The notes beneath the pieces are model-generated. The model worked only from the letters and a program-made list of their open reading frames with translations, made no database searches and was not told the DNA's origin. The position numbers were made by a program, and so were the translations under genes. From contig JAPLJO010000167.1 in the NCBI GenBank assembly GCA_026388515.1, positions 1 through 54,407 on the forward strand: a DNA stretch of 54,407 bases, in the 5' to 3' direction. The first letter of the stretch is position 1; every line of letters starts with the position of its first letter. This DNA comes from Deltaproteobacteria bacterium. GTDB taxonomy: Bacteria; Desulfobacterota; Syntrophia; Syntrophales; UBA2210. Of the stretch, positions 13,705 through 38,759 are shown piece by piece.

Positions 13705-13788
13705 CTGACTTTCATTATGCATTAAGAGAAATTAATCTTTTAGTAATAGAAACAGTTATCAACCACGCGAAAAAGGAGGATGAAACCG

Positions 13789-14691: not shown

Positions 14692-14706
14692 AATAAGGAG
14701 GGATCC

Positions 14707-21522: not shown

Positions 21523-22170
21523 GTGGAAATGGACCTCCACATTCACACGAACCGCTACTCCGGGTGCAGCAACCTGGATCCGTCGGCCCTCCTCCGGAAG
21601 GCCCGCGATGTGGGGCTGGACGGGATCGTCCTGACGGAGCACGGCATCCGCTGGTCCGATGAGAACCTCCGGGAACTCGTCGAGGCAAGCGGCGTGAAGG
21701 ACCTGCTGGTCCTGGTGGGGCAGGAGGTGGCCTGCTACACCCCGCGGGGCGAATTTCAGGGGGAATTCCTGCTGTTCGGTTATCCCCGGAGTCTCGGGTC
21801 GAGCCGTTCCCTTGAGGTGATTCTCAAACTTGTCCATGGAGAAGGGGGCGTCGTCATCGCCGCCCATCCCTTTAAAAAGATAATTTCCGCCAATGGCGAC
21901 GGGTTTTACGGGGCCGGACACCTTGTGTATGAGTACGACCTGGACGGACTCGAAGTGGCCCATCCGTCCTATGACCGTGAAAGCACCGCCCTGGCGGAAG
22001 AGGCCATGAGGAAGCGGAACCTCGCCGGCATCGGCTGTAGCGATGCTCACGACCTGATGAGCGTCGGCCTCTGCCGGTCCGTATTCCCGGACCCTGTCAC
22101 CGACATGGAGGGCCTCTGCGAGGCGATCCGGGAGCGCCGCGTAAAAGCGATCTCCATGAAAGCAGTTTAA
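21523..22170 (+). CDS. PHP-domain metal-dependent phosphoesterase
   Basis: 215 residues. All PHP motifs are present in order: MDLHIHTNRYSGCS at the N-terminus, LTEHG near residue 46, GQEVACY near 67, AAHPFKK near 115 and GIGCSDAHD near 170. These His and Asp residues bind two or three metals. Single-domain PHP proteins hydrolyse phosphoesters such as nucleotides, RNA ends or histidinol phosphate. The start is GTG at 21523; an ATG six bases later is an alternative. It closes the TetR operon, next to a PP2C-like protein; its link to acyl-CoA metabolism is unknown. Confidence 0.85.
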   Translation: MEMDLHIHTNRYSGCSNLDPSALLRKARDVGLDGIVLTEHGIRWSDENLRELVEASGVKDLLVLVGQEVACYTPRGEFQGEFLLFGYPRSLGSSRSLEVILKLVHGEGGVVIAAHPFKKIISANGDGFYGAGHLVYEYDLDGLEVAHPSYDRESTALAEEAMRKRNLAGIGCSDAHDLMSVGLCRSVFPDPVTDMEGLCEAIRERRVKAISMKAV

Positions 22171-23719: not shown

Positions 23720-23776
23720 GCCAATGACAGACTTGTGCGGTCTTGATCCAGGATAATGCACACGAGCGGTGATTGG

Positions 23777-25159
23777 ATGAACCATTATGACGCTGTCATC
23801 ATCGGTGCGGGTATTGCCGGCCTCGGCGTTGCCGGCCTTCTCCAGGGCAGGGGATTGAAGACCGTGGTGCTTGAGAAAAGCAAAACCCCCGGCGGACGAT
23901 CGAAGACCTATGAACTGCCCGGGGGATGGAAGGTGGACACGGGAACCCACTGTGTCGATCTCGGTAAATATTCCGCATGCGCCACCCTGCTGCGGAAGCT
24001 GGGAAAGGAAATCGCCTGGTCGCGCAATCTCGAGGGCTTCATGTTTTATGACGGGGGTACATGGAAACCCATGACGGAGTATCTCGCCCTCAGCCCGAAG
24101 GAGATACGTAAGCTTGCGGAGATGGAGAATTGGATACGGCAGACCGGTGATGAAGAGATCGACGCCCTTGACAATGTGTCGCTGACGAAATTCATTGAGG
24201 AGAAAGTTTCTTCACCCCGGATTGCGGAATTCGTGAAGACGGTGGGCATGGTTCAGACAACTCTGACGGAGGCGGATATTATTTCTGCAGGAGAATTCGT
24301 CGCCATCTACCGGGATTCGCTGCGGCTCAGTTCCCGAAACAATTTTCCCTTTGACAACGTGAGAATGCCCGTCGGCGGGATAGCCACGATGATCGGGGCC
24401 ATGGCGGAGGCATATACGGAATGGGGCGGCGCGCTTCTGCCGGGTACTCCTGTCCGCCGCGTCAACGTGAAGTTGGGCGGGCTTATGGAGGCCGTGACGG
24501 ATAATGAAACGTTCCGGGCTCCCGTCGCAGTTATCGCAGCGCCCATCTGGCACATGCTCAAGGTGCTTTCAATGGAGGAAATGTCCGGATTCGTGCCGGA
24601 GTGGACAGTGCGCATGCGCGGCTTTGAGAGGGAAACAAGCGCATCCATGGGGTTCACCATCGGGACGAAAGCGCCCCTTTTCACAAGCCCATGCTATTTG
24701 TCCGCACGGCGCCTCCCCGATATGGATCTCCCTTTACAGATTCTGGGACACTCGCTGTTCGATGACACCATCGCACCCCCCGGCCACATGGTCGCCTTCA
24801 TGGGCGCCTGCTGCACGCCGGCTCAGGCGATTGACAAGGATTTCCGCGAGAAAACCCTCGCCGCATTCTGGGAATTATTGAAAAAAATGTTCCCCTCAAT
24901 GGAAGCCGATCTCCTGTGGAAGCATGACGGCTTCTATGTGGGAATCGACGGGCTGAGCCGCTCTCCGGGCATGACGGGCCGCTACAGACCGCCGGTGTAT
25001 CTGCCGGAGGTACCCGGACTTTATTTTGCAGGCGACTGCTATACGGGCCGCGGCGTCGGGATGAATGCGGCGGCGAACTCGGCGATGATCTGCGCGGATA
25101 CAATTCTGAAGCAATTCAATACAACTACAAAAACCATCAGGAAGGAGGAATCACAGTGA
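23777..25159 (+). CDS. Phytoene-desaturase-like FAD oxidoreductase, copy a1
   Basis: About 460 residues. The dinucleotide fold DAVIIGAGIAGLGVAGLL followed by PGGRSKTYELPGG, and near the end YFAGDCYTGRGVGMNAA, mark the CrtI/amine-oxidase-like flavoproteins. It is clearly related to the protein at 40104: same length, the same LGAGIAGLG-type start, and the same EIEAWDN/EIDALDN and DxSRSPG/GLARQPG regions. ATG codons at 23756 and 23777 are possible; the second is chosen because the paralog starts at the equivalent place. It likely desaturates, saturates or isomerises a C-C bond in a hydrophobic substrate. It overlaps the next gene by four bases. Confidence 0.8.
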   Translation: MNHYDAVIIGAGIAGLGVAGLLQGRGLKTVVLEKSKTPGGRSKTYELPGGWKVDTGTHCVDLGKYSACATLLRKLGKEIAWSRNLEGFMFYDGGTWKPMTEYLALSPKEIRKLAEMENWIRQTGDEEIDALDNVSLTKFIEEKVSSPRIAEFVKTVGMVQTTLTEADIISAGEFVAIYRDSLRLSSRNNFPFDNVRMPVGGIATMIGAMAEAYTEWGGALLPGTPVRRVNVKLGGLMEAVTDNETFRAPVAVIAAPIWHMLKVLSMEEMSGFVPEWTVRMRGFERETSASMGFTIGTKAPLFTSPCYLSARRLPDMDLPLQILGHSLFDDTIAPPGHMVAFMGACCTPAQAIDKDFREKTLAAFWELLKKMFPSMEADLLWKHDGFYVGIDGLSRSPGMTGRYRPPVYLPEVPGLYFAGDCYTGRGVGMNAAANSAMICADTILKQFNTTTKTIRKEESQ

Positions 25160-26043
25160 ACGTACAGAAGATCACCGTATTAGGTGCCGGCACCATGGGA
25201 CACGGCATTGCGCAGGCCGCCATAGCGGCGGGATTCAACGCGGTCCTCTATGACGTCAGCCGGGAATTCGTTGACAAGGGAGCGGGCCGGATCAGGAAAA
25301 GCCTCGCAAAACGTGTGGAGAAGGGAAAGCTGAAGGATGAAGAGATGAAGGCGATTCTCTCACGTTTGACGACCGCCACGGACCTCAAGGAAGCGGCCGC
25401 CGGCGCGGATTTTGTGGTCGAGGCTGTTCCCGAAAATCTGGATCTCAAGAAAAAGATCTTCGCGGAGCTGGACAGGATCTGCAAGCCCGAAGCCATTCTG
25501 GCGACGAACACGTCCGTGCTGTCCGTCACTGCCATGGCGGGGGCGACGCAGCGGAAGGACCAGGTGGTGGGCACCCATTTCTTCAATCCCGCCGCGGTCA
25601 TGAAGCTGGTGGAAATCGTGTGCCCGATCGGCGTCTCGGAGAGCATTGTCGCGATTGCACTCGACACCATGAAAAAGATGGGCAAAGTTCCCATCCGTGT
25701 GAAGGACACCCCGGGCTTCATCGTGAACCGCCTCCTGGGACCGTTGTACATGACCGCAGCCCAGATGGTTCTGGAAGGCACGGCATCGGCGGAAGATATT
25801 GACACGGCGATGAAGCTTGGAGCGGGTCATCCCATGGGACCCTGCGAACTGGCCGATTTCGGAGGCTTCGATGTCATCCAGATGGCCCAGGATTCCGTCT
25901 TTGAATATACCCACTCGGAATCGGACAAGCTCAATATCCTTTACCGAAAGATGATCGAGGCGGGACGGCTTGGATTCAAGAACGGCAAGGGTTTCTACGA
26001 TTATCTGCCGGATGGCACCAAGAAACCATTCAAAGTCTTTTAG
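25156..26043 (+). CDS. 3-hydroxyacyl-CoA dehydrogenase (HBDH type), copy 1
   Basis: 295 residues, the single-function 3-hydroxybutyryl-CoA dehydrogenase length. NAD loop GAGTMGHGIAQA at residues 9-20, EAVPENLDLKKKIF, NTSVLSV, THFFNPAAVMKLVE with the catalytic His, and DTPGFIVNRLLGP with the catalytic Asn region are all present. It oxidises (3S)-hydroxyacyl-CoA to the ketoacyl-CoA. The start is GTG, overlapping the previous stop, with AAGGAGG eight bases upstream. A paralog lies at 41523; each stands directly after a CrtI-like flavoprotein. Confidence 0.93.
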   Translation: MNVQKITVLGAGTMGHGIAQAAIAAGFNAVLYDVSREFVDKGAGRIRKSLAKRVEKGKLKDEEMKAILSRLTTATDLKEAAAGADFVVEAVPENLDLKKKIFAELDRICKPEAILATNTSVLSVTAMAGATQRKDQVVGTHFFNPAAVMKLVEIVCPIGVSESIVAIALDTMKKMGKVPIRVKDTPGFIVNRLLGPLYMTAAQMVLEGTASAEDIDTAMKLGAGHPMGPCELADFGGFDVIQMAQDSVFEYTHSESDKLNILYRKMIEAGRLGFKNGKGFYDYLPDGTKKPFKVF

Positions 26044-26056
26044 GAGGACGCATACT

Positions 26057-26842
26057 ATGGACTACAAAGATATTCTTGTTACCAAAGATGGAGCAGTAGC
26101 CACCATCGCCATCAATCGCCCCGAGGTCCTCAACGCCATCCGGGACAATACCATGTTTGAAATCCAGGACGCGCTGAATGACATAGAAAAGGATGATGCC
26201 ATTCGCGTGGTAGTGCTCACCGGGACGGGGGACAAAGCGTTTGTGGCGGGTGGCGATATTTCCATCATGGCCAAGGGAGCGGGATACCTCGACGTCATCC
26301 ACGGACTGCCGGCCGGTCAGCAGATCACCTGGAACATTGAACATTTCAGGAAACCGGTCGTAGCGAGGATCAACGGAATTGCCCTGGGCGGCGGAACGGA
26401 GCTGGCCTTGTGCTGCGATATCCGCGTGGCGGCCGATACGGCGATTATGGGAGTCCCTGAAATCAATCTCGGAATTATCCCCGGCTACGGCGGCACCCAG
26501 CGTCTCCCGAGGATTGTCGGCACGGGCATGGCCAAAAAGATGGTGTTGACGGGTGAGCATATCAGCGCCCAGGAGGCGTACCGGATTGGTCTCGTGGATG
26601 TGCTCGCACCAAAAGCAGAACTGGATGATGCCGTCGCCAAGCTGTGCAAACGCATCGCCTCCAAAAGTCCTATAGCCCTCGCCATGGGCAAGGAAGCCAT
26701 CAACATGGGGATGCAGGCGGATTTGCGCACGGGGCTTTCCATTGAAGCCCGCTGCTTCTGCATGTGCTTCGGGTCGGAGGACCGGGTGGAAGGAATGAAT
26801 GCGTTCCTGGAAAAGCGGAAACCCGATTTCAAGGGACGCTGA
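26057..26842 (+). CDS. Enoyl-CoA hydratase (crotonase family)
   Basis: 261 residues from the ATG at 26057, which has TAGGAGG ten bases upstream. The crotonase motifs are complete: AFVAGGDISIM, the oxyanion loop INGIALGGGTELALCCD with the first catalytic Glu, and PEINLGIIPGYGGTQRLPR with the second. Both glutamates suggest a true hydratase, adding water to the 2,3-double bond. It lies 13 bases after 3-hydroxyacyl-CoA dehydrogenase and 26 before a thiolase, so these three make one complete beta-oxidation turn. Confidence 0.93.
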   Translation: MDYKDILVTKDGAVATIAINRPEVLNAIRDNTMFEIQDALNDIEKDDAIRVVVLTGTGDKAFVAGGDISIMAKGAGYLDVIHGLPAGQQITWNIEHFRKPVVARINGIALGGGTELALCCDIRVAADTAIMGVPEINLGIIPGYGGTQRLPRIVGTGMAKKMVLTGEHISAQEAYRIGLVDVLAPKAELDDAVAKLCKRIASKSPIALAMGKEAINMGMQADLRTGLSIEARCFCMCFGSEDRVEGMNAFLEKRKPDFKGR

Positions 26843-26868
26843 TAACCTGTATGATGAGGAGTGATATT

Positions 26869-28053
26869 ATGAGAGAAGTCTTTATCGTGGATGGCGCAAG
26901 GACACCAATCGGCCGGATGGGCGGAGCGCTCGCGGCCTTCCGCCCCGAGGAGCTGGCGGCTTTCGCACTCAAGGGCCTGCTGGATAAAACCAAAATCGAC
27001 CCCTCGATTGTCGAGGACATACTGATCGGCCATGCATGTACGAACAATGCCGCGGTGAACATCGCCCGCTGGGCTGCGCTGAAGGCCGGCTTCCCTGTGA
27101 CGGGGACGGCACAAACCATTGAACGGCAGTGCGGTTCCTCACTTCAAACGATCAATACGGCGGCGGCAAATATCCTTGCCGACTTCGGCGAGGTGTATAT
27201 CGCCGGCGGCTGCGAGAGCTGGAGCAACCAGCCGTATCTGATGGAGCGCCAGAAGGCGCCCTATTCACTTTCTCCGAATGCATGGATTACGCGTGAAGTG
27301 GGGCCGACCCCGGACACGAATGTCCCCATGGGCATCATCGCCGAGGGCCTGGCGTCTGAATGGTCGGTGACGAGAGAGGAACAGGACCGGTGTGCCCTCC
27401 GCAGCCAGGAGTGCGCAATCCGGGCCATTGATGCGGGACACTTCAAGGATGAGATCGTTCCGATTAGTATTCCACAGAAAAAGGGAGACCCGGTGATCTT
27501 CGACCGGGACGAGCACCCGCGGGCTACCAGCATGGAAAAGCTCGCCGCACTGAGGCCGGTTTTCAAGAAGGACGGCACCGTGACCGCGGGCAACTCATCG
27601 GGACTGAACGACGGGGGTGTGGCCGTGCTGCTGATGTCCCGGCAGAAATGCGAAGCGCTGACACTCAAGCCGCTGGGGCGATTTGTGGCATGTGCCCTGG
27701 CGGGAGTGGAGCCCCGGTACATGGGAATCGCGCCGGCGTATGCGGTTCCCAAGGTGCTGGCAAAAGCGGGCCTGAAACTCGAAGACATGTCCGTCATCGA
27801 ATGCAATGAGGCCTTCGCCGCCCAGACTCTCGCCGTGATGAAAGAGCTGGCCAAAAATGGCCACAAAGTGGAAGAGGATAAATGGAACCCCAACGGCGGA
27901 GCCATTGCCTTTGGACATCCGAACGGCATGAGCGGCGGTCGCCTGGCCCTGGCAGTCCTCCATCAGCTTCGCCGGACAGGTGATCGCTATGGTCTCGCGA
28001 CGCTCTGCATCGGCGGCGGCCAGGGAATAGCCACCATCTTCGAGAGCGTGTAA
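26869..28053 (+). CDS. Acetyl-CoA acetyltransferase / 3-ketoacyl-CoA thiolase
   Basis: 394 residues from the ATG at 26869 (GAGGAGTGAT ribosome site). All catalytic motifs of a classical thiolase are present: ERQCGSS with Cys88, GGAIAFGHPNGMSG with His350, and LCIGGGQG with the second Cys near 380. It cleaves a 3-ketoacyl-CoA, releasing acetyl-CoA. It directly follows enoyl-CoA hydratase. It serves as a useful contrast to the Cys-less thiolase-like proteins that begin 33 bases downstream. Confidence 0.93.
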   Translation: MREVFIVDGARTPIGRMGGALAAFRPEELAAFALKGLLDKTKIDPSIVEDILIGHACTNNAAVNIARWAALKAGFPVTGTAQTIERQCGSSLQTINTAAANILADFGEVYIAGGCESWSNQPYLMERQKAPYSLSPNAWITREVGPTPDTNVPMGIIAEGLASEWSVTREEQDRCALRSQECAIRAIDAGHFKDEIVPISIPQKKGDPVIFDRDEHPRATSMEKLAALRPVFKKDGTVTAGNSSGLNDGGVAVLLMSRQKCEALTLKPLGRFVACALAGVEPRYMGIAPAYAVPKVLAKAGLKLEDMSVIECNEAFAAQTLAVMKELAKNGHKVEEDKWNPNGGAIAFGHPNGMSGGRLALAVLHQLRRTGDRYGLATLCIGGGQGIATIFESV

Positions 28054-28086: not shown

Positions 28087-29232
28087 ATGTCAGATAGAGT
28101 TGCCATTGTAGGGGTGGCCCAAACACGGTTTGCTCCGAAGCGCCCGGACGTCAACTACGGAGAGATGGCATACGAAACCATCTCGCAGGTGCTCCGGCAG
28201 ACGAACCTGGCGCTGCCCGATGATATCGACAATGCCATCAGCTGTTCCCATGATATCTGGGATGGCCAGACCATTTCCAACATCAGCATCACGGATGTCA
28301 TCGGCGGACATCTCAGGACAGAGGAGAAAATGGCTCTCGATGGTTCGACAGCCGTTTATTATGGTGCGGTGGGCATCCTGTCGGGAGAATATTCCTGCAC
28401 CCTCCTGATGGCCCACACGAAAATGTCCCAGACGAACAGGAACATCGTCAACAATGTTGCATTCGATCCCATCTACAGCAGAATGCTGGGATTCGACTAC
28501 ACGTCCGCAGCGGCGCTGCAGGCAAGGCGCTACATGTACAAGTACGGCATCACCCGCGCGCAGATCGCCGAAGTCGTGGTGAAGAATCTGTCCAATGCCA
28601 GATTCAATCCATCGGCCCATCAATCCGGGGAAATTTCCATCGCGGATGTGCTGAGCTCTCCCGTGGTGGCTGCCCCGATCCACAGGCTGGACATTGCCCC
28701 CGATACCGATGGAGCCGTCGCCGTCATCCTCGCCTCGGAAGAGCGGGCAAAATCCATCACGGACAAACCGGTCTGGCTTCTGGGGATGGGGACCAGCTAT
28801 GACGCCCATTACCTGGGTGACCGCGATCTGGCGGACTGCCGCGCGCTGCAGCAAGCCGCAGAGCGCGCATATCGTATGGCCGGCATCAGGAATCCCCGCC
28901 GGTCTGCGGATCTCGCGGAAGTCGGTGATGAATTTTCGTATCAGGAGCTGCTCTGGATGGAAGGATTGGGCCTGTGTGACAAGGGAGATGCCGGTCGACT
29001 TGTCGAAAGCGGCGCCACTGCCATCGGCGGAAAACTTCCCGTGAATCCATCGGGCGGACTTTTATCGGGTGTACCGATCAATGTGGCCGGCCTGAACAGG
29101 GTCGCGGAGGCGGTGCTCCAATTGCGCGGTGAGGCGGGAGAACGCCAGGTCAAGGGTGCGAAGATCGCCATAGCCCAGGGACATAGCGGATTCTGCGGAC
29201 AGCACCAGTGTGTGCTGGTGCTCGGCAACTGA
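28087..29232 (+). CDS. Thiolase-like subunit A1 lacking catalytic Cys and His
   Basis: 381 residues with the SCP2-thiolase fold (start RVAIVGVAQTRFAP; LPVNPSGGLL; RGEAGERQVKGAK). At the nucleophile position the text is KMALDGSTAV (residues 81-90), so Cys is absent, and the GHPxGA motif reads GVPINVAG, so the His is absent too. The usual EVHD motif reads EVGDEFSYQELLW, leaving a Tyr. It cannot work as an ordinary thiolase. Paralog A2 at 35951 shows the same losses. It is followed by partner B1 and two DUF35 genes, the arrangement of DUF35-bound thiolase-fold enzymes such as the aldolase Ltp2. Its reaction, perhaps retro-aldol cleavage of a 3-hydroxyacyl-CoA, is inferred. Confidence 0.82.
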   Translation: MSDRVAIVGVAQTRFAPKRPDVNYGEMAYETISQVLRQTNLALPDDIDNAISCSHDIWDGQTISNISITDVIGGHLRTEEKMALDGSTAVYYGAVGILSGEYSCTLLMAHTKMSQTNRNIVNNVAFDPIYSRMLGFDYTSAAALQARRYMYKYGITRAQIAEVVVKNLSNARFNPSAHQSGEISIADVLSSPVVAAPIHRLDIAPDTDGAVAVILASEERAKSITDKPVWLLGMGTSYDAHYLGDRDLADCRALQQAAERAYRMAGIRNPRRSADLAEVGDEFSYQELLWMEGLGLCDKGDAGRLVESGATAIGGKLPVNPSGGLLSGVPINVAGLNRVAEAVLQLRGEAGERQVKGAKIAIAQGHSGFCGQHQCVLVLGN

Positions 29233-29247
29233 AAGACGGAGGAAGAT

Positions 29248-30417
29248 ATGAAACGAAATGTGGCCATCATCGGCGGGGGTCAGACGTTCCATGCGGCCCG
29301 GCGACATGATGTCGATCAGGCGGAAATGGTGAACGAGGCCGTACGTGCCGCACTCAATGACGCCCGGATGACCATGGATGAAATCGACCTGGTCATTCTC
29401 GGAAATATGGAGTTCTTCGAAGGCACCCACATGACGGATTGCTGGCTTGTGCATGGGACGGGCGCCTACGGAAAGCAGGGTCTCAAGATCACGACGGGAG
29501 GAACGGTCGGCGCCACCGCGGTCGTCACGGCAGCCCATCATGTGGCAAGCGGACTTTTCCCCAGGGTTCTGTGCATCGGTTTCGAGAAGCAGGAGGAGGG
29601 AGACACGGGAGCGATTCTCAGCGGCGTGGCCCATCCCTTGTGGGGCCGCTCTCTCGCCGGTGCGGCGGTAGGCTATTTCGCCATGATGGGCTCGTCCTAC
29701 ATGGCCGCGTGGGGTGCCACGGAGGAGCATTCCGCCATGGTTGCCGTCAAGGCGAGACAGAACGCGAGAAAGAATAAGTATGCCCATCTGAAACTCGATA
29801 TCGGCATCGAGGACGTCCTCAATTCCCGGATGCTCTCCTGGCCCATCCGGATGCTGGACATGTGTCCGGCCTCCAATGGCGCCTGTGCGATGATCCTGGC
29901 GGATGAGAAGACGGCGAAGGCACGATGCAAGAAGCCGGTATGGATTCGTGCCATGGACACGGCCCATAACGAGCAGTTCGAACTGGATTGGCGTGATGTG
30001 AAAACGACACGCCCCATCTTTTCCAGGACCTGTGCAAAACGTATTTACAGGAAGCTCGGTGTCCAGAAGCCGTCCGAATATTTCGATGTCTTTGAGGTGT
30101 ATGAACCCGCCACATGGTCGGAGCTTGTATGGTACGAAGACCTTGGGCTCTGCGCCCCGGGAGAAGGTTTCCGCCTCATTGAAAAAGGGGTGACGGAAAT
30201 CGGAGGTGCGATACCTGTCAATCCTTCCGGCGGCGTGTTGTCCACGAACTGCATCGGCGCATCGGCCATGCTCCGCGTCTGGGAAGCGGCCCTGCAGATC
30301 CGGGGAGATGCCGGAGAACACCAGGTGCCCAAGGATGTCCGGCGCGCGCTCACGACGGCCTACGGCGGCACCAACTGGACGGTCATGACGGCCCTTTCCA
30401 GGACACTGGATGATTAA
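29248..30417 (+). CDS. Thiolase-like subunit B1 lacking catalytic Cys and His
   Basis: 389 residues of thiolase fold (start NVAIIGGGQTFHAARRHDV). The nucleophile region reads ITTGGTVGAT (residues 81-90) without Cys, and the GHP region reads VLSTNCIGAS without His. Near the end TTAYGGTNW replaces the second-Cys motif. A conserved FEVYEPATWSELVWYEDLGLC segment holds Tyr and Trp. It differs from A1 but closely resembles B2 at 37102, so A and B are distinct subunit types that probably form a heterodimer. GGAGGA precedes the ATG, 15 bases after A1. Alternatively one subunit might be purely structural. Confidence 0.82.
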   Translation: MKRNVAIIGGGQTFHAARRHDVDQAEMVNEAVRAALNDARMTMDEIDLVILGNMEFFEGTHMTDCWLVHGTGAYGKQGLKITTGGTVGATAVVTAAHHVASGLFPRVLCIGFEKQEEGDTGAILSGVAHPLWGRSLAGAAVGYFAMMGSSYMAAWGATEEHSAMVAVKARQNARKNKYAHLKLDIGIEDVLNSRMLSWPIRMLDMCPASNGACAMILADEKTAKARCKKPVWIRAMDTAHNEQFELDWRDVKTTRPIFSRTCAKRIYRKLGVQKPSEYFDVFEVYEPATWSELVWYEDLGLCAPGEGFRLIEKGVTEIGGAIPVNPSGGVLSTNCIGASAMLRVWEAALQIRGDAGEHQVPKDVRRALTTAYGGTNWTVMTALSRTLDD

Positions 30418-30428
30418 GGAGGAAACCT

Positions 30429-30908
30429 ATGGCAACAAAAATTCAGGAACCGATTTCCATCCCCATGACGGTGAGCGTACCGTATCGTTTTGCGGCGGGA
30501 TCATATCTGACAAAATGTCTGATCGGGCTTCGTGATCATGGCACGCTCTTCGCCGTAGAATGCCCGAAGTGCAAGCGTGTCCAGCTTCCCCCGCGTATCG
30601 TGTGCGCCACGTGCCATGTCAGGAATGAGCGCTGGGTGGAGTTAGGTCTGGAAGGAACGCTGGTCGCGTTTACCATCATGTATCTGCCGTTGACCGACCC
30701 CACGACGGGCAAGCCGCATAATCCCCCCTTCGTATACGGAACCGTGCGGCTCGACGGCGCCACTTCAGTCCTGGACCATTTCATCAATGTGGAGCCCGAT
30801 CTGGAAAAGATCAGGGTGGGCATGCGATGCCGGATGATCCTGCGCCCGCAGGCTGAGAGGATAGGAGATCTCAGCGACATCCTGTACTTCGATCCGATAC
30901 CGGGCTAA
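30429..30908 (+). CDS. DUF35 Zn-ribbon/OB-fold protein, type a1
   Basis: 159 residues. A short helix leads to a rubredoxin-like Zn ribbon with Cys45, Cys48, Cys59 and Cys62 (CPKCK...CATC). An OB-fold half follows, with VYGTVRLDGATSVLDHFI and a final VGMRCRMI strand. DUF35 proteins bind thiolase-fold partners and help hold the acyl-CoA; known examples are the ChsH2 DUF35 domain with Ltp2 and BbsA with BbsB. It is most like the protein at 38280 (same length, same PFVYG/PYTYG region). It follows B1 by 11 bases behind TAAGGAGG. Confidence 0.88.
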   Translation: MATKIQEPISIPMTVSVPYRFAAGSYLTKCLIGLRDHGTLFAVECPKCKRVQLPPRIVCATCHVRNERWVELGLEGTLVAFTIMYLPLTDPTTGKPHNPPFVYGTVRLDGATSVLDHFINVEPDLEKIRVGMRCRMILRPQAERIGDLSDILYFDPIPG

Positions 30909-30959
30909 CGCACCACGAAGAGCGAATGCCTCAACCTATTGAGAAAGGAGATATGTGGC

Positions 30960-31415
30960 ATGGAAGAAAAACACACCACGGATACGTTCGAGGTGGATCA
31001 GCGACTCACGGCCCATGGAACGTACTGGGCAGGCAAGATGGGCACCCGCTTTTACACTGCCCTGAGGGACCAGCAAAAGATTCTGGGAACACCATGCACA
31101 ACCTGCAATAAAGTCTTCTGGCCTCCCCGTTCAATCTGTACATTCTGTTTTTCCGAATTGAAGGACGTCGTTGAAATCGGTCCGCGTGGTACCGTTGAGA
31201 CGTTTACGCTGGTTACCTATACCGAACCGATTCATCCCCGGACTGCACCATTCCTCTATGCAGTGATCAAACTGGACGGCGCCGACACCGGCATGGCCCA
31301 TTTTCTTGATGAAGTGGAAATCGACAAAGTCCATATCGGCATGCGCGTGCAGCCGGTATTTGCAAAAGACCGGAAGGGCAACATTCTGGACATACAGTAT
31401 TTTAAACCCATTTGA
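30960..31415 (+). CDS. DUF35 Zn-ribbon/OB-fold protein, type b1
   Basis: 151 residues from the ATG at 30960, which has GAAAGGAG eleven bases upstream. Zn-ribbon cysteines are 46, 49, 60 and 63 (CTTC...CTFC). The OB half contains LYAVIKLDGADTGMAHFL and IGMRVQPVF. It pairs in sequence with the 151-residue protein at 35475, both carrying RFxxALRDxxKILGT before the ribbon. Two different DUF35 types next to two different thiolase-like types suggest one DUF35 per subunit, that is, a four-protein complex. Confidence 0.88.
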   Translation: MEEKHTTDTFEVDQRLTAHGTYWAGKMGTRFYTALRDQQKILGTPCTTCNKVFWPPRSICTFCFSELKDVVEIGPRGTVETFTLVTYTEPIHPRTAPFLYAVIKLDGADTGMAHFLDEVEIDKVHIGMRVQPVFAKDRKGNILDIQYFKPI

Positions 31416-31430
31416 CCGAGGAGACGTTCC

Positions 31431-32453
31431 ATGGAGGAAAAAGAAAAACGTTGCTACCTTGCCTCGTTTGAAGGTGAGCGGCGGGCCGAGCGGAATCCCG
31501 TAAACTACCAGCGCAGGGACGATGCGCACCACATCTATCAGGGTGATGAGTACTATGAGTGGTGGTATATCGACTGTTCGTTCGATAACGGATATCACAT
31601 GGTCTTGACCTATCACTACATGAACGGATTCCTCAAACCCATCATTCCCACCACACAGCTCATGGTGTATCGGCCTGACGGGAAACAGACGCTTCGCATG
31701 GCCGCCTGGAAGCCGGAAGAAATCCAAGCCGGCGCCGACTGGTGCGACGTAAAGATGGGAGACAGCTGGATGTGTGATAAGGGCAACGGGGTCTATGATT
31801 TGTCCATGATCATCAACGGCGTGGGGGCGCAACTCACGATGAAAAGCATTGTCCCGGGCTGGAAGCTGGGCGCAGGATTCAATTACAAAAACGAGGAAAC
31901 GGGCGCGGTTGCCGGATGGGTGGTGCCGGTGCCGCATGCGGAGGTGGAAGGCGAACTGTATCTGAAGGGGGAAACCCTGCAGGTTAAAGGTACTGCGTAT
32001 CATGATCATAACTGGGGGAACCGGCGGTTTTACCGGATTTTTTCTTCATGGTACTGGGGGCGGATTCACAGCAGCCAGTATACGGTGGATTACGCATGGG
32101 TGTTCCCGCGGGACCCGGAAGCCCCCATCTTCGCTCCCCTTCTCATTGCGAAGGGAGGGGAGATCGTCCTGTCCACCAACATCATGAACACCGCGTTGAA
32201 TGATATTGTTCGTGATCCCACGATACAGCAGGACTATGCAAGAAACCTTGTTGTCTCGACAGACAACCTGGGTGTAAAGATGAACCTGACCATCGACACG
32301 ACCCGCCTGGTGGAAACGATGCAGCTTCCTCAGGCGGCGGAATGGAACCAGTATTATTTCCGTTTCCTGGCGGATTACCGCATGGACATTGAGATCGATG
32401 GAACAAAGGAAACCATAGGGGGCGAGATGCTCCATGAATATATGGTGCTGTAA
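31431..32453 (+). CDS. CrtC/AttH-like lipocalin-type protein
   Basis: 340 residues. The N-terminal half has EYYEWWYIDCSFDNG and later VKGTAYHDHNWGNRRF, the WWY and YxDHNWG signatures of the CrtC/AttH-like double lipocalin family. Named members are carotenoid 1,2-hydratase (CrtC), which adds water to an isoprenoid double bond, and diverse plant-type cyclases. The His-Asp-His cluster is a likely catalytic site. No signal peptide is seen. With CrtI-like flavoproteins on both sides, it suggests a hydratase or isomerase acting on a hydrophobic, perhaps isoprenoid or alicyclic, CoA substrate. The exact reaction is unknown. A GAGGAGA site precedes the ATG. Confidence 0.72.
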   Translation: MEEKEKRCYLASFEGERRAERNPVNYQRRDDAHHIYQGDEYYEWWYIDCSFDNGYHMVLTYHYMNGFLKPIIPTTQLMVYRPDGKQTLRMAAWKPEEIQAGADWCDVKMGDSWMCDKGNGVYDLSMIINGVGAQLTMKSIVPGWKLGAGFNYKNEETGAVAGWVVPVPHAEVEGELYLKGETLQVKGTAYHDHNWGNRRFYRIFSSWYWGRIHSSQYTVDYAWVFPRDPEAPIFAPLLIAKGGEIVLSTNIMNTALNDIVRDPTIQQDYARNLVVSTDNLGVKMNLTIDTTRLVETMQLPQAAEWNQYYFRFLADYRMDIEIDGTKETIGGEMLHEYMVL

Positions 32454-32482: not shown

Positions 32483-34009
32483 ATGAACGATGAAACACGC
32501 TACGACGCCATCGTCATTGGTGCCGGTGTAGGCGGGCTCGCAGTGGGCACACTCCTTGCCCGGGAAGGGAAGAAGGTACTGATTCTTGAACAGCTCGATC
32601 GGCCGGGGGGTCGTGCCCTGTCCGTCCGTGGTGAAGAGATCGCCGACAGGGGACTTGACTGGTACAGGAAACTCCTTTCTTCCCAGTATACGTACATTGC
32701 CGGTTCCGAACCGGATCTGGAAACAATTATCAAAAAGCGTCTTCTCGACGGGTATACCCTCGATATCGGATATCACGCCATAAGCGCCAACGGCGCCGGA
32801 TACATGCTTGATTTCGAAGACTGCATCGGGGGGCTCCCTGAAGTGGAGAAGCATGGCGCCCATTTCGGCAGCCACTATAAAGGAAAGATTTACCGTGACG
32901 TGGCAGGTTCTTCCATTGATCCGGAACTCAAGCGGATTGCAAAAGAAGGACGAATTCCTTATTTGTCATTTTATACGGATCCCTATGGATTGTCCGACGA
33001 TGATATCGATGAGCTGGAAAAGGTGTCCTTCAAGGAATGGGCGGACAAGAAGGGCATATCGAAAAGCGATGTCATCTTCAATCACCTCCACACAGTCAGC
33101 ACACTTTTTTCGACCATTAACGACCCCGGCGATATCTCGATAGGAGATATCTTCCGATATTTCAAGCATGCATTCCTCCCAAAACTGCACAGGGGCGTCC
33201 TGGGCTGGGCGGGAGGATTTATCGGCCATGGAGCCATGGAATGGTCGAAGGCCGTTGCACAAAAAATCCGGGATCTGGGCGGAGAGATCCGCTTTGAGGC
33301 GCGGGTCACACAAATTCTCGTGGATCAGGGCAGGGTGAGCGGCGTGCGGGTTGAGCTGCCGAAGGGAGAAACAACGTTCCAGGCTGATATCGTTATCAGC
33401 AACATTCCCGCCCAGCACACCTTCAAAATCATCGACCGGAAATATTTTCCCGAAGCATGGGCGACCAGAGTTGAGACCATGTACGGCTACGGCAGCTATG
33501 TTCCCTATATGGGACTGAACAGGCTCGTGATGCCGGAGGGGGAAGCAAAAATGGGACTCAAGAATACCTGTGTCCTGCCCAAGTCGGAAGGCTTTGATTA
33601 TGATGTCTACATCTGCTGGAATATCCAGTCAGCCGTGGATCCTTCCGTGGCGCCGGGGGGAAAGTACCTGTATACGGCGTACCTGCCGGTCACGGAAAAA
33701 GAGGCAATGAACCGTAAGCTGATCAGCAAGATCATGCACAGGCTTCCGGAATTCATGGAGGAGATATACCCCGGTTTCAAGGCCAGCATCGATTGGAAGC
33801 TTGACCTTGTCTGCTGGAAGCTCGAAGGTGTCGCGAAGAGCATCTCCCAGGCCGGCACACAGAAAGTGCCGGTACGGTCGGAGCATGTCAAGGGGCTCTT
33901 CTTTGCAGGTGATACGGCCAAGGGATACGGTGTGGCCATGGACTGCGCCATCGCGTCGGGGATGATCTGCGCGGGTGAGATCCTGGGCAAGGACTTCGGA
34001 ATCCGTTAA
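32483..34009 (+). CDS. Phytoene-desaturase-like FAD oxidoreductase, type b
   Basis: 508 residues. YDAIVIGAGVGGLAVGTLL and LEQLDRPGGRALSV form the FAD fold; GVLGWAGGFIGHGAM near residue 235 and FFAGDTAKGYGVAMDCA near 480 complete the CrtI-like pattern. It is longer than, and distinct from, the a-type copies at 23777 and 40104. Such proteins transfer hydride between FAD and isoprenoid, retinoid or cyclic enones. It follows the CrtC-like gene by 29 bases, and the two may act on the same intermediate. Confidence 0.8.
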   Translation: MNDETRYDAIVIGAGVGGLAVGTLLAREGKKVLILEQLDRPGGRALSVRGEEIADRGLDWYRKLLSSQYTYIAGSEPDLETIIKKRLLDGYTLDIGYHAISANGAGYMLDFEDCIGGLPEVEKHGAHFGSHYKGKIYRDVAGSSIDPELKRIAKEGRIPYLSFYTDPYGLSDDDIDELEKVSFKEWADKKGISKSDVIFNHLHTVSTLFSTINDPGDISIGDIFRYFKHAFLPKLHRGVLGWAGGFIGHGAMEWSKAVAQKIRDLGGEIRFEARVTQILVDQGRVSGVRVELPKGETTFQADIVISNIPAQHTFKIIDRKYFPEAWATRVETMYGYGSYVPYMGLNRLVMPEGEAKMGLKNTCVLPKSEGFDYDVYICWNIQSAVDPSVAPGGKYLYTAYLPVTEKEAMNRKLISKIMHRLPEFMEEIYPGFKASIDWKLDLVCWKLEGVAKSISQAGTQKVPVRSEHVKGLFFAGDTAKGYGVAMDCAIASGMICAGEILGKDFGIR

Positions 34010-34033: not shown

Positions 34034-35257
34034 ATGAAACCAGATGATGTGGTCATTGTCAGTGCCGTTCGAACTCCTTTCGGCAGATTCGACGGTGTGC
34101 TCAAAACCGTTCTGAGCATGGACCTCGGTGTGCTCGCACTCAAGGAAGTGGTGCGGCGGATCAATCTCGATCCCGCACAGGTGGATGAAGTCTATTACGG
34201 CACATGCATTCCCGCCGAGTATGCCATTTATACCAATGTTCCCGCCCGGCAGATTACGCTCCTGGCGGGATTCCCGGAGAATAACATCTCGCTCACCATC
34301 GACCGCGCCTGCTGTTCATCCATGACGGCCCTGCGGCTTGGATGGAGAGCGATCAAATCGGGAGCGGCGCAGATTGTCATCGCCTCCGGCGCTGAAAACA
34401 TGGGCAACGTTCCGCTCATCGCCAGTGCGGAAAAAACCCGCTGGGGAAGCCGCCTCGGAAACGTGCCACTCGAAGACGTGCTGTTCGAGCTCGGCTACAG
34501 CCGCAAGGGATTTGCGCCGGTGGCCACCGATGCAGGCGAAGTGGCCGTCGAATACGGCGTCACCAGACAAAAGCAGGACGAATGGGCCATCCGAAGCCAC
34601 CGGAAATACTTCGAGGCCTTCAAAGCGGGAAAATTCAAAATCGGCGAGGAACTGATGCGCCTGGAAATTCCCCAGAAGCGGGGCGATCCGATTGTGCTCG
34701 AAAAGGATGAATCTCCCAGGGAGAATCTTACCCTGGAGAAGATGGCCGCGCTGAAGACCGTGTACGGAAGCCCGACCGTCACCGCGGGCAATGCCCCGGG
34801 CCTCAATTCGGGAGCATCGGCGGTGGTGATCATGGCACGGCGGAAAGCTGACGAACTTGGACTGGAGCCGCTGGGAGAAATTGCAGCCTGTGAGCCCGCG
34901 GCGGGATCGCCCAAATACATGGCTTGCGTCCCGGCCCAGACCATCGACAAGATGCTTGCCAGGACCGGCCATGCCATCGGTGATATCGATCTCGTAGAAA
35001 TCAACGAGGCCTTTGCCGCAGTCACCCTGGTATCGCTCAAGATGCTGGCCAAGGACGATCCGGGCAAGTGGCAGGAGCTCCAGGACAAGTCGAACGTGAA
35101 TGGAGGCGCCATTGCCATCGGACATCCGGTAGGGGCAAGCGGTGCGAGGATCACCATGGCCCTTCTGTACGAGCTTCGGCGGCGAGGCGGCGGCCTCGGA
35201 GTTGCCGCCATCTGCGGAGGCCTTTCGCAGGGGGAAGCGCTCCTTTTGAAAGTATAA
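34034..35257 (+). CDS. Acetyl-CoA acetyltransferase / thiolase
   Basis: 407 residues. RACCSS puts the nucleophile at Cys93; GGAIAIGHPVGASG holds the catalytic His and ICGGLSQG the second Cys. The enzyme is therefore complete and should cleave ketoacyl-CoA with CoA. It is a second functional thiolase of the same operon as the gene at 26869, so more than one chain length or branch type is probably handled. AAAGGTGG precedes the ATG. Confidence 0.92.
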   Translation: MKPDDVVIVSAVRTPFGRFDGVLKTVLSMDLGVLALKEVVRRINLDPAQVDEVYYGTCIPAEYAIYTNVPARQITLLAGFPENNISLTIDRACCSSMTALRLGWRAIKSGAAQIVIASGAENMGNVPLIASAEKTRWGSRLGNVPLEDVLFELGYSRKGFAPVATDAGEVAVEYGVTRQKQDEWAIRSHRKYFEAFKAGKFKIGEELMRLEIPQKRGDPIVLEKDESPRENLTLEKMAALKTVYGSPTVTAGNAPGLNSGASAVVIMARRKADELGLEPLGEIAACEPAAGSPKYMACVPAQTIDKMLARTGHAIGDIDLVEINEAFAAVTLVSLKMLAKDDPGKWQELQDKSNVNGGAIAIGHPVGASGARITMALLYELRRRGGGLGVAAICGGLSQGEALLLKV

Positions 35258-35474: not shown

Positions 35475-35930
35475 ATGACTGAATGGTTAAAAAGCGTTGA
35501 ACCGTTGACACTGAAGGGGCAAATCGCCGTTCCCTATACATGGTGGGTCGGTGAGACGGGCGGCAGGTTCATGGCTGCCCTCAGGGACCATCGGAAGATT
35601 CTCGGAACAAAATGCAGCTCCTGCAAAACGGTGTATGTGCCGGCACGCAAGAGTTGCGGCCGCTGCTTCATTGACATGGAGGAGTGGGTGGATATCGCCG
35701 ATGAGGGCGTCATTCAGGCCTATACGATCGTGCATTACGGGCATCCCGTGCAGCCTGCAAAGCCGCCGTTCGCGTACGCACTGATCAGGCTCGACGGGGC
35801 CGATGTGGGCTTTCTGCACGTGATAAAAAAAGATCTGGACAGGATCAAAAACGGCCTCAGGGTGAAGGCAAAATTCAGGGCGGAGCGAACGGGGACCATC
35901 CTTGACATCGACTCCTTTGAACTCATGTAG
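35475..35930 (+). CDS. DUF35 Zn-ribbon/OB-fold protein, type b2
   Basis: 151 residues from the ATG at 35475 (GGAGAGGAG upstream); longer frames to the left run into the BKACE remnant. Zn-ribbon cysteines are 47, 50, 61 and 64 (CSSC...CGRC). The OB half has FAYALIRLDGADVGFLHVI. It is the paralog of the protein at 30960. In this second set the b-type DUF35 comes before, not after, the A and B genes, so gene order was changed after duplication. Confidence 0.88.
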   Translation: MTEWLKSVEPLTLKGQIAVPYTWWVGETGGRFMAALRDHRKILGTKCSSCKTVYVPARKSCGRCFIDMEEWVDIADEGVIQAYTIVHYGHPVQPAKPPFAYALIRLDGADVGFLHVIKKDLDRIKNGLRVKAKFRAERTGTILDIDSFELM

Positions 35931-35950
35931 GCGCCTGTGGAGGAACTGAA

Positions 35951-37093
35951 ATGGACAAAGCGGCAATAGTCGGAGTCGCGCAGATAAAATATGAAAGAAG
36001 AAAGAAGGACCAGATCTTCGCCGATATGGTGTTTGATGTGACCCGGGAGGCCCTTGATGATGCAGGCCTTACCATCCATGACGTGGACAATGTCGTCACG
36101 GTGTCGAATGACTTTTTTGACGGCCGGACGATATCGGGCATGGCGGTCGGTGATGCGTGCGGGGGCCAGGACAAGAATATCTCGACGGTTTCCGGTGACG
36201 GCACGTTTGGAGCCTTCTACGGCCTCATGCGGGTCCTTTCCGGATACAAGGCCACCATCGTCGTCGCGCACTATAAAGGCAGTGAAGGCGATATCAATAT
36301 AACGACCAACGGCATGTTCGACCCGGTCTTTCATCGCCATCTCGGGATAGACGCCGTATCCTCGGCGGCTCTGCAGGCGAACGCCTATATGACCAGATAC
36401 GGCATACGTGAAGAGGATATTGCGCAGGTATCAGTGAAGAATCACGGCAACGCAAAGAATAATCCCTTCGCCCAGCTTCCGATGGATATCACAGTAAATG
36501 ATGTCATGAAGTCGAGAAAAATAGCTGAGCCGCTGAAGCTTCTCGACTGCTGTCCCATCAGTGATGGGGCTGCGGCGGTCATTATCGCGGGCGAGGACAT
36601 TGCAGCAAAATGCAGAAAAAAGCCCGTGTGGGTGAGGGGAGTCGCGCACTGCTGCGAGGAATATTTCCTCGGTGACCGTGACCTTTCCAATCCGGTTGCG
36701 CTGCGTGAAGCGGCAACGCGGGCATACGCGATGGCAGGAATCAGGAACCCGATCGAAGATATCGATGTGGCCGAAGTGCTTGAGCCGTTCAGTTACATGG
36801 AACCCCTGTGGCTTGAAGGGCTGGGGTTCTGCGAACCGGGAGCGGGCTGCAGTCTCATCACAAAAGGAATTACCGTCATGGGTGGGAAGCTTCCCGTCAA
36901 TCCATCCGGCGGCGCACTGTCGGCAAACCCTGTGCTTGTGGCCGGGCTTGCGAGGCTGATTGAAGCCGCGCTCCAGGTCCGGGGCGAAGCCGGGGCACGA
37001 CAGGTGAAGAACGCCGACACGGCGCTCGCGCAGGGCTTCAACGGACCGTGCGGTCAAAGCCACTGCGTGTGGATCATCAGCGGGACGAAGTGA
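35951..37093 (+). CDS. Thiolase-like subunit A2 lacking catalytic Cys and His
   Basis: 380 residues, paralog of A1 at 28087: shared start (AAIVGVAQIKY), YFLGDRDL, AYAMAGIRNP, GKLPVNPSGG, and the C-terminal GPCGQSHCVW. At the nucleophile site STVSGDGTFG (residues 78-87) has no Cys, and the GHP site reads SANPVLVAG. The EVHD motif is EVLEPFSYMEPLW, keeping the Tyr found in A1. These shared features suggest conserved, repurposed chemistry rather than decay. GGAGGAACTG precedes the ATG, 20 bases after the DUF35 gene. Confidence 0.82.
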   Translation: MDKAAIVGVAQIKYERRKKDQIFADMVFDVTREALDDAGLTIHDVDNVVTVSNDFFDGRTISGMAVGDACGGQDKNISTVSGDGTFGAFYGLMRVLSGYKATIVVAHYKGSEGDINITTNGMFDPVFHRHLGIDAVSSAALQANAYMTRYGIREEDIAQVSVKNHGNAKNNPFAQLPMDITVNDVMKSRKIAEPLKLLDCCPISDGAAAVIIAGEDIAAKCRKKPVWVRGVAHCCEEYFLGDRDLSNPVALREAATRAYAMAGIRNPIEDIDVAEVLEPFSYMEPLWLEGLGFCEPGAGCSLITKGITVMGGKLPVNPSGGALSANPVLVAGLARLIEAALQVRGEAGARQVKNADTALAQGFNGPCGQSHCVWIISGTK

Positions 37094-37101
37094 GGTGACC
37101 A

Positions 37102-38262
37102 ATGGCACGAAGAGTAGCTATCGTAGGAACGGGACAGACATACCACAAGAGCCACAGGCCTGATGTGACGTCGCGGGAAATGATCAAGGAAGCCGTGTCA
37201 AGCGCGCTTGCCGATGCCGAACTGACCATCAGGGATATCGATGCCATTGTCATCGGCAATATGGACCACTTCGAGTCCATCAACTACGTTGACACCTACA
37301 GCGTTGAAGGCTCCGGCGGCGTGATGAAGCCGATCATGAAGGTGACGACCGGCGGCACCACGGGGGCGACGGTGGCAATCGCGGCATACTACCATGTGTC
37401 TTCAGGTTTCTTTGACAGGGTGCTGGCGATCGGATTCGAGAAGAACTCCGAATCGGATACCACGGGAGCAATCATCACCTGCTCCGATCCGGTGTGGGAT
37501 CGGTTCTCGTATTCCGGGGCGATACCGAGCCTTGCCACGGAGGCAACGGCATACATGGAGAAGTACGGTGCGACCCAGGAAGATGCCGCGCTTATCGCGG
37601 AGCGGGACCGCGGCCATGCGATGAATAATCCTTACGCGCACCTGAGGCGGCCCCTTACCGTTGCGGATATCATGGCGTCGCCGATGCTTGCGTATCCGAT
37701 CAAGCTGGGTGACATCTGCCCGAGATCGGATGGCGCCTGCGCCATCGTGCTGGCGGCTGACGGTATAGCCCAGAAAATTACCGGCAAGCCGGCATGGTTC
37801 AAGGCCGCCGCCGTGAGACATACCTACACCTGGTTCGGCGACTCCACGGATTATAACAAGGGACTCGTATCGATGCAGCGCGCCTCAAAGGACGCCTATG
37901 CGCAGGCAGGAATCACGAAGCCCGTTGACGAGATCGATGTGGCGGAGCTCTATCTTCCCTATACGTGGGCCGGCCTCAAGTGGATTGAGGATATCGGATT
38001 CTGCGGTCCCGGGGAGGCCTCGAAATTTGTAGGCGACGGGCACACCCACATGGGCGGCAAGCTCCCCATCAACCCGTCGGGGGGCGTGATTTCAACAAAC
38101 TGCATCGGGGCAACAGCCCTGCTCCGGGTTGCGGAAGCGGCCATCCAGGTCATGGGCAAAGGCGATACAAGGCAGGTCCCCGATGTCAGGAATGCCATCG
38201 CCACAGGATTCGGCGGCTGCTTCTGGAGTGATATCGTCATTCTAAGCTCAGAGAGACCATAA
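37102..38262 (+). CDS. Thiolase-like subunit B2 lacking catalytic Cys and His
   Basis: 386 residues, paralog of B1 at 29248: start RVAIVGTGQTYHKSHRPDV, KVTTGGTTGATVA at the nucleophile site without Cys, and GVISTNCIGATALLR in place of GHP. The AELYLPYTWAGLKW segment matches FEVYEPATWSELVW of B1. Unlike B1, which has TTAYGGT, the last motif reads ATGFGGC. It follows A2 by eight bases (GAGGTGACC ribosome site). It probably forms the second half of an A2-B2 heterodimer. Confidence 0.82.
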   Translation: MARRVAIVGTGQTYHKSHRPDVTSREMIKEAVSSALADAELTIRDIDAIVIGNMDHFESINYVDTYSVEGSGGVMKPIMKVTTGGTTGATVAIAAYYHVSSGFFDRVLAIGFEKNSESDTTGAIITCSDPVWDRFSYSGAIPSLATEATAYMEKYGATQEDAALIAERDRGHAMNNPYAHLRRPLTVADIMASPMLAYPIKLGDICPRSDGACAIVLAADGIAQKITGKPAWFKAAAVRHTYTWFGDSTDYNKGLVSMQRASKDAYAQAGITKPVDEIDVAELYLPYTWAGLKWIEDIGFCGPGEASKFVGDGHTHMGGKLPINPSGGVISTNCIGATALLRVAEAAIQVMGKGDTRQVPDVRNAIATGFGGCFWSDIVILSSERP

Positions 38263-38279
38263 CAGGAAGGGGAACAACC

Positions 38280-38759
38280 ATGTCGACACAGAACAGGCAA
38301 GGTGAACTGATGCAGTTAACCTTCGCATACCCGATGCCGTACGAATGGTCCATCGGGCTCTACGGAAGCAGGTTCTTTCAGGAAATAAAGGAGAAGAGAC
38401 GTTTCATCGGCATCAAGTGCAATGGCTGCGGTATGGTGTACGTTCCGCCGCGCCGTGTGTGTGGCCCCTGTTTCAAAGAGCTGTCAGAGCTCGTTCCTCT
38501 GTCCGACACGGGCGTGATAACGGCGTTCTCCGTGGTGAATTATCCTTTTATCGATCCGAACACGGGACTTCAGCGACCCATTCCCTATACGTACGGCTAT
38601 ATCAGGCTCGACGGCGCCGACAATATCTTTTCACACATCATCAATGAAACGGACCTCGGCAGAATCCATGTCGGGATGAAGGTGCGGGCGGTATTCAAGG
38701 AACCCGATCGAATGCAGGGCAACATCCAGGACATCAAATATTTTGATATCATCAGCTGA
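38280..38759 (+). CDS. DUF35 Zn-ribbon/OB-fold protein, type a2
   Basis: 159 residues with Zn-ribbon cysteines 47, 50, 61 and 64 (CNGC...CGPC) and an OB half with YTYGYIRLDGADNIFSHI. It pairs with the equally long protein at 30429. It completes the second set (DUF35b-A-B-DUF35a). The MFS transporter gene starts three bases after its stop, so the two are co-translated. Confidence 0.88.
   Translation: MSTQNRQGELMQLTFAYPMPYEWSIGLYGSRFFQEIKEKRRFIGIKCNGCGMVYVPPRRVCGPCFKELSELVPLSDTGVITAFSVVNYPFIDPNTGLQRPIPYTYGYIRLDGADNIFSHIINETDLGRIHVGMKVRAVFKEPDRMQGNIQDIKYFDIIS

Follow-up and report, generated by a model that had tools for sequence, protein, structure and literature searches.

A candidate Ltp3-Ltp4-type carbon-carbon lyase encoded by a Syntrophales contig

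What chemistry can be expected from two thiolase-fold proteins that have lost the catalytic residues of thiolases and are encoded together with two DUF35 proteins? The question is raised by contig JAPLJO010000167.1 (assembly GCA_026388515.1) of a Deltaproteobacteria bacterium from the Syntrophales (UBA2210), whose full 54,407 nucleotides are referred to here as the window. Four open reading frames (ORFs) on the forward strand, spaced by 11-51 bases, encode in turn A1 (28087..29232; 381 amino acids; Pfam Thiolase_C_1, 7.5e-38), B1 (29248..30417, with 15 bases between A1 and B1; 389 amino acids; Thiolase_C_1, 8.4e-29) and two DUF35 proteins, each with a zinc ribbon and an OB fold: DUF35a (30429..30908; CPKC-x10-CATC, four Cys intact; zf-ChsH2 2e-7, OB_ChsH2_C 1.7e-12) and DUF35b (30960..31415; CTTC-x10-CTFC; zf-ChsH2 1e-8, OB_ChsH2_C 5.8e-13). 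The ORF of DUF35b opens with a TTG codon at 30939, and translation probably starts at the ATG at 30960, given the Shine-Dalgarno-like AAGGAG that precedes it. These frames and domains agree in position with an earlier sequence-only reading of two distinct thiolase-fold proteins followed by two distinct DUF35 proteins. Judged by sequence, the A1-B1 pair belongs to the Ltp3-Ltp4 family, and we lean towards reading A1-B1-DUF35a-DUF35b as a heteromeric Ltp3-Ltp4-type carbon-carbon lyase acting on coenzyme A (CoA) esters, with B1 as its catalytic subunit.

Alignment of the active-site columns with SCP2-thiolase, BbsB and TcLtp2 reveals that the three hallmarks of SCP2-type thiolases (nucleophilic Cys, HDCF and GHP) are all absent from A1 and B1. 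Within B1, Gly85 takes the column of the nucleophilic Cys, Tyr285 that of the HDCF His, Pro287 that of the HDCF Cys and Asn334 that of the GHP His; in A1 the nucleophile loop is three residues shorter, and the columns of the HDCF His and the GHP His hold Gly and Val, respectively. The loss of the nucleophilic Cys and the GHP His from both proteins, as claimed in the sequence-only reading, is thereby confirmed. Its further claim, that the two share Tyr/Trp-rich segments at the EVHD position, holds for the segments themselves (EVGDEFSY in A1, EVYEPATW in B1), but an aldolase-like Tyr is present in B only and not in A1, which makes it unlikely that the two thiolases are catalytically equivalent.

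The TcLtp2 sequence was obtained by searching the PDB with an Ltp2-like protein encoded at locus L045, which scores 429 bits to it. TcLtp2 has Gly in the Cys column, and its Tyr294, the YDHF Tyr, whose chain number is the same as the published one, aligns without a gap to B1 Tyr285; Tyr344 stands at the GHP place. The proposed likeness to Ltp2, with its rebuilt active site, is borne out for B1, in which Gly has replaced the Cys and Tyr the HDCF His, just as in Ltp2; with both changes retro-aldol chemistry appears the most likely reaction for B1. For Ltp2 and Sal, PMC12329534 assigns the role of catalytic base to this Tyr and describes a contact between the substrate hydroxyl and the Gly at the corresponding position. 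Gly, Tyr and Asn are invariant in all 57 B-family sequences (43 B1-like and 14 B2-like), and the Pro287 column holds Pro in 56 of them. The ratio of nonsynonymous to synonymous substitution rates (dN/dS) against close relatives is 0.07-0.11 for A1 and 0.05-0.07 for B1, which are rough values since dS exceeds 1. Of 58 A-like genes, 51 are directly followed by B in the same orientation, and in 46 cases two DUF35 genes lie at the flanks. The invariance of the B residues, the low dN/dS and the recurring order of A then B together argue that the loss of Cys and His is neither chance nor decay.

The thiolase fold has been retained, as had been claimed: in addition to the Pfam matches, AlphaFold models of the single chains, built on 42-sequence alignments, have a mean predicted local distance difference test score (pLDDT) of 90.7 for A1 and 90.2 for B1, and Foldseek finds full-length matches of both models to SCP2-thiolase, BbsB, ST0096, archaeal acetoacetyl-CoA thiolase, Ltp2 and Sal. 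The copy of the PDB that was searched contains no structure of an Ltp3-Ltp4 pair, and its closest matches are about 30% identical. The top structural match of A1 is ST0096 (4yzo) from Sulfolobus, likewise a Cys-less thiolase-like protein, which in contrast to A1 retains ELHD and GHP and is placed outside the A-B clade.

A maximum-likelihood tree of 68 proteins places all A proteins with Ltp4 (99/97) and all B proteins with Ltp3 (94/80, slightly below the star threshold), within a joint A+B clade (99/99) separate from SCP2-thiolase, BbsB, ST0096 and the Pyrococcus thiolase. Since A groups with Ltp4 and B with Ltp3, the A-B split predates the separation of the copies found in the different lineages. 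The top NCBIfam match of B1, and of B2 from a second set in the window, is PRK08313, a family of actinobacterial Ltp3-type proteins, in each case below its cut-off. The actinobacterial reference was a pair from a Tsukamurella plasmid, treated as Ltp4 and Ltp3 because it exceeds the cut-offs set in NCBIfam for PRK07937 and PRK08313 and because the plasmid carries a sterol gene set: KstR, six MlaD-family (Mce-type) proteins with two permeases, cytochromes P450 (CYP) and a steroid 3-ketoacyl-CoA thiolase.

A four-subunit lyase of this composition, with retro-aldol chemistry in an anaerobe, had been tentatively regarded as new in the sequence-only reading, a view that the tree overturns, because the Ltp3-Ltp4 family to which it points has already been described as a heteromeric aldol-lyase, a description of which a mutant study by Wilbrink (2012) is reportedly the basis. 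The lyase has been named for C24-branched sterol side chains (PMC6678751), and Ltp3 and Ltp4 are both required for the degradation of branched side chains (PMC6273163). The genes of Mycobacterium tuberculosis follow the order Rv3521, Rv3522 (ltp4), Rv3523 (ltp3) (PMC6429209). Both this system, with its Rv3521-like tandem-DUF35 protein, and that of the window consist of an adjacent Cys-less pair from the same two clades, with the Gly, Tyr and Asn of B1 in the Ltp3 partner and two DUF35 domains adjoining the pair. They differ in that the window has two separate DUF35 proteins with intact zinc ribbons, whereas those of Tsukamurella are fused and the first domain lacks the Cys residues; on the Tsukamurella and Streptomyces plasmids the pair adjoins a single protein with two OB_ChsH2_C stretches. 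The gene order is A-B-DUF35-DUF35 in the window, as opposed to DUF35DUF35-Ltp4-Ltp3 in the actinobacteria examined, and the window comes from an anaerobe, with no sterol gene set seen among its scanned genes; none of the window proteins scanned with Pfam is an Mce or CYP protein.

How might such an assembly work? From the gene order we infer a four-subunit complex, in which A and B would form a heterodimer of thiolase-fold subunits, with one DUF35 protein bound to each. In the proposed mechanism, a retro-aldol cleavage of CoA esters, catalysis falls to B1: Asn334, in the place of the GHP His, would hold the thioester carbonyl, Gly85 would make space for and bind the beta-hydroxyl oxygen, as its counterpart does in both Ltp2 and Sal, and Tyr285, which corresponds to Ltp2 Tyr294, would take the beta-hydroxyl proton. 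Cleavage between C-alpha and C-beta would then yield acetyl-CoA or propionyl-CoA together with a ketone or aldehyde. A1 would have a structural role, completing either the active site or the channel for the substrate. The likely substrates would be branched beta-hydroxyacyl-CoAs that ordinary dehydrogenase and thiolase are unable to handle, and this would account for the presence of ordinary thiolase genes alongside. An enoyl-CoA hydratase (26051..26842, +; Pfam ECH_1 6.8e-73), encoded within the A1-B1 run and conserved together with it, is a possible supplier of the hydroxyacyl-CoA substrate. The retro-aldolase reading draws together the invariance of Gly and Tyr, the same changes in TcLtp2 and the published roles of these residues in Ltp2 and Sal, the grouping with the Ltp3 and Ltp4 clades, the sterol gene set around the Tsukamurella pair, the published description of Ltp3-Ltp4, a correlation between the tree distances of A and B, this nearby hydratase and a DUF35-SCP2 fusion elsewhere in the genome.

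Several observations weigh against this reading. B1 has the two hallmark changes of Ltp2/Sal-type aldolases, as far as the alignment tells, without their proton donors: Ltp2 Tyr344 aligns to Cys (B1 Cys335) or Pro in the B family, and Sal Cys304 (YDCY) aligns to the nearly invariant Pro287. The steroid aldolase Ltp2-ChsH1-ChsH2, like the system of the window, combines a thiolase fold with DUF35, Cys to Gly, and Tyr at the HDCF His, but Ltp2 is homodimeric and its YDHF reads YEPA in B1, where the Tyr alone is kept and the His is missing. The bile acid aldolase Sal-Shy also combines a thiolase fold with DUF35 and has its catalytic Tyr at the matching place. ChsH2 carries its DUF35 fused to a hydratase domain and Shy has DUF35 fused to a MaoC hydratase, with a Cys3His zinc site, whereas neither DUF35 of the quartet is fused to a hydratase. 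Furthermore, the published evidence on Ltp3-Ltp4 is genetic. The correlation between A and B distances (r 0.92 over 50 pairs), like the mirror-tree correlations among A, B and DUF35 proteins (r 0.90-0.94), is also what the joint inheritance of one operon would give. Finally, the division of labor may vary among clades, given that a YD-A-F/Y motif together with a His survives in several A2 orthologues.

The missing proton donor lends some weight to an alternative that we consider unlikely, namely that the complex is another lyase or a decarboxylase, or acts on CoA esters in the bond-forming direction (aldol addition or decarboxylative condensation) without a covalent acyl-enzyme. Bond formation, as the reverse reaction, could use the same residues, and TbSLP, whose site is similar, decarboxylates malonyl-CoA weakly (PMC12329534); on the other side stand the requirement for Ltp3-Ltp4 in degradation and the beta-oxidation-like context of CoA ligase, dehydrogenases, hydratase, thiolases and transporter. 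It is less probable still that both thiolase-fold proteins are dead and form, with DUF35, a scaffold channeling acyl-CoA among the neighboring thiolase, hydratase and dehydrogenase. DUF35 does join enzymes in the archaeal thiolase/HMG-CoA synthase complex and in PhlABC (PMC12329534), and no known catalytic residue is left in A1 or A2, but a scaffold alone would not require the Gly, Tyr and Asn that every B sequence retains, even in distant phyla. An ordinary thiolase, SCP2-type or BbsAB-like, using another Cys is very improbable, for although the fold and family are thiolase-like and Cys335 of B1 adjoins the GHP position, this residue is Pro in most relatives while Gly85 is invariant and the GHP His and HDCF are gone, two ordinary thiolases are encoded alongside, and the A-B clade stands apart from BbsB and SCP2-thiolase. 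The benzoylsuccinyl-CoA thiolase BbsAB resembles the quartet in being a thiolase-fold protein with a separate DUF35 from an anaerobe, at about 29% identity over the fold, but BbsB retains Cys, HD-A-F and GHP, and the enzyme has one thiolase subunit type and one DUF35. Membership in Ltp2, Sal or BbsB was rejected, as defining residues were missing or scores too low; for BbsB, the scores of 137 and 140 bits lie under the 750 that the NCBIfam model requires.

Under the lyase reading, the function of the A subunit needs separate consideration. A1 is under purifying selection yet lacks any known catalytic residue, and a catalytic A1 was rejected since its active-site columns hold no Tyr, His or Cys; both A1 and A2 look like non-catalytic partners. 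The conserved A1 residues D56, D59, G60 and T62 fall within one loop, the lowest-confidence region of both single-chain models, which presumably faces the partner subunit, as in thiolase dimers in general, and our guess is that A contributes to the active site of B. Orthologues of A2 in L014, L030, L032, L061, L062 and L063 keep ELYDAF-like motifs, mostly with AHP, whereas the A2 of the window (EVLEPF, ANP) has neither the YD-A-F/Y motif nor the His, and A1 differs likewise. The A subunits appear to have decayed independently, because some A2 orthologues retain both motifs that the window A2 has lost. YDAF or YDAY with His-Pro at the GHP place was seen in the A2-type proteins at L014:2758-3891 (-), L030:11568-12704 and L063:1339-2472.

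The 45 loci obtained by scanning genome contigs come from Syntrophales, Desulfatibacillum alkenivorans, Desulfobacterales, Anaerolineae, Dehalococcoidia, a Bacillota bin and Candidatus Methanolliviera, and the quartet recurs in Desulfobacterota, Chloroflexota, Bacillota, one archaeon and the aerobe Cupriavidus. A plasmid of Cupriavidus necator has the full A-B-DUF35-DUF35 order (L072:6733-10200), unannotated in the plasmid collection; with this and the actinobacterial relatives, the idea of a system specific to anaerobes falls away. The genome of the window has 26 Thiolase_C_1 matches, several as A-B pairs. On another of its contigs (C39), the gene at L016:11366-12535 (-), which adjoins an A1-B1-like pair, encodes a DUF35 zinc ribbon in fusion with two SCP2 sterol-carrier domains; this is the one hint at the substrate, which may be sterol- or lipid-like. 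Two Chloroflexota bins encode Ltp2-like aldolases (QFYDAF, EAY) near A-B quartets, at L045:11111-12340 (the protein of the TcLtp2 search) and L051:15922-17151.

The Ltp3-Ltp4 family itself is already known, and what is added here is family members in anaerobes; literature searches for anaerobic clusters of the A-B-DUF35-DUF35 kind found nothing. The quartets found show this system to be widespread among anaerobic degraders, with several sets per genome. We offer more tentatively the broader possibility that anaerobes hold many such complexes, each a dead partner with a Cys-free aldolase using a new proton donor, which cleave beta-hydroxyacyl-CoAs, branched or tertiary, that derive from isoprenoid- or steroid-like compounds; if true, this would provide an oxygen-independent route past branch points. 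The family is known from genetics in the literature examined and is poorly studied in actinobacteria, and the value of these anaerobe quartets, unfused in bacteria and an archaeon and conserved in order, lies in offering tractable targets for working out the role of each thiolase-fold subunit.

The second A-B set spans 35475-38759 of the window, all on the forward strand, and comprises a DUF35 protein (35475..35930; Pfam; four Cys), A2 (35951..37093; Cys-less; Thiolase_C_1 2e-36; A clade), B2 (37102..38262; Cys-less, with Gly, Tyr and Asn in ELYLPYTW and TNC; Thiolase_C_1 6.1e-36; B clade) and a further DUF35 protein (38280..38759) recognized by similarity (33-40% identical to the three others of the window) and its four-Cys zinc ribbon, whose orthologues adjoin B2-type genes. 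The CxxC-x10-CxxC zinc motif is present in all four DUF35 proteins of the window and in 108 of 109 relatives. A sequence-based match of one DUF35 subtype with A and the other with B was rejected, as the four are all 32-40% identical in pairwise comparison and the pairing is not clear.

The surrounding run encodes a CoA ligase-like protein, acyl-CoA dehydrogenases, hydroxyacyl-CoA dehydrogenases (among them 25156..26043, +; Pfam 3HCDH_N 8.8e-66), the enoyl-CoA hydratase, a major facilitator superfamily (MFS) transporter and two Cys thiolases, one directly upstream of A1 (26857..28053, +; Thiolase_N 3.6e-75, Thiolase_C; QCGSS and GHP motifs) and one at 34034..35257 (+; Pfam; TIGR01930 above cut-off; ACCSS and GHP motifs). 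We take this run to fit the breakdown of an acyl-CoA with a branch point impassable for hydroxyacyl-CoA dehydrogenase and thiolase. The same catabolic run includes three Amino_oxidase/phytoene desaturase-like flavoproteins (23756-25159, 32483-34009 and 40104-41510) and a CrtC/AttH-like lipocalin (31431-32453; weak 7a0q match) that is kept with the A1-B1 run in Desulfatibacillum and Anaerolineae. Elsewhere in the window, ARAGORN calls a tRNA-Cys with anticodon ACA (21996-22072, -) inside an opposite-strand ORF, probably a false call, and positions 13780-16044 encode a 4Fe-4S protein and then a GMC-oxidoreductase-like flavoprotein, with a TetR regulator and acyl-CoA dehydrogenases downstream.

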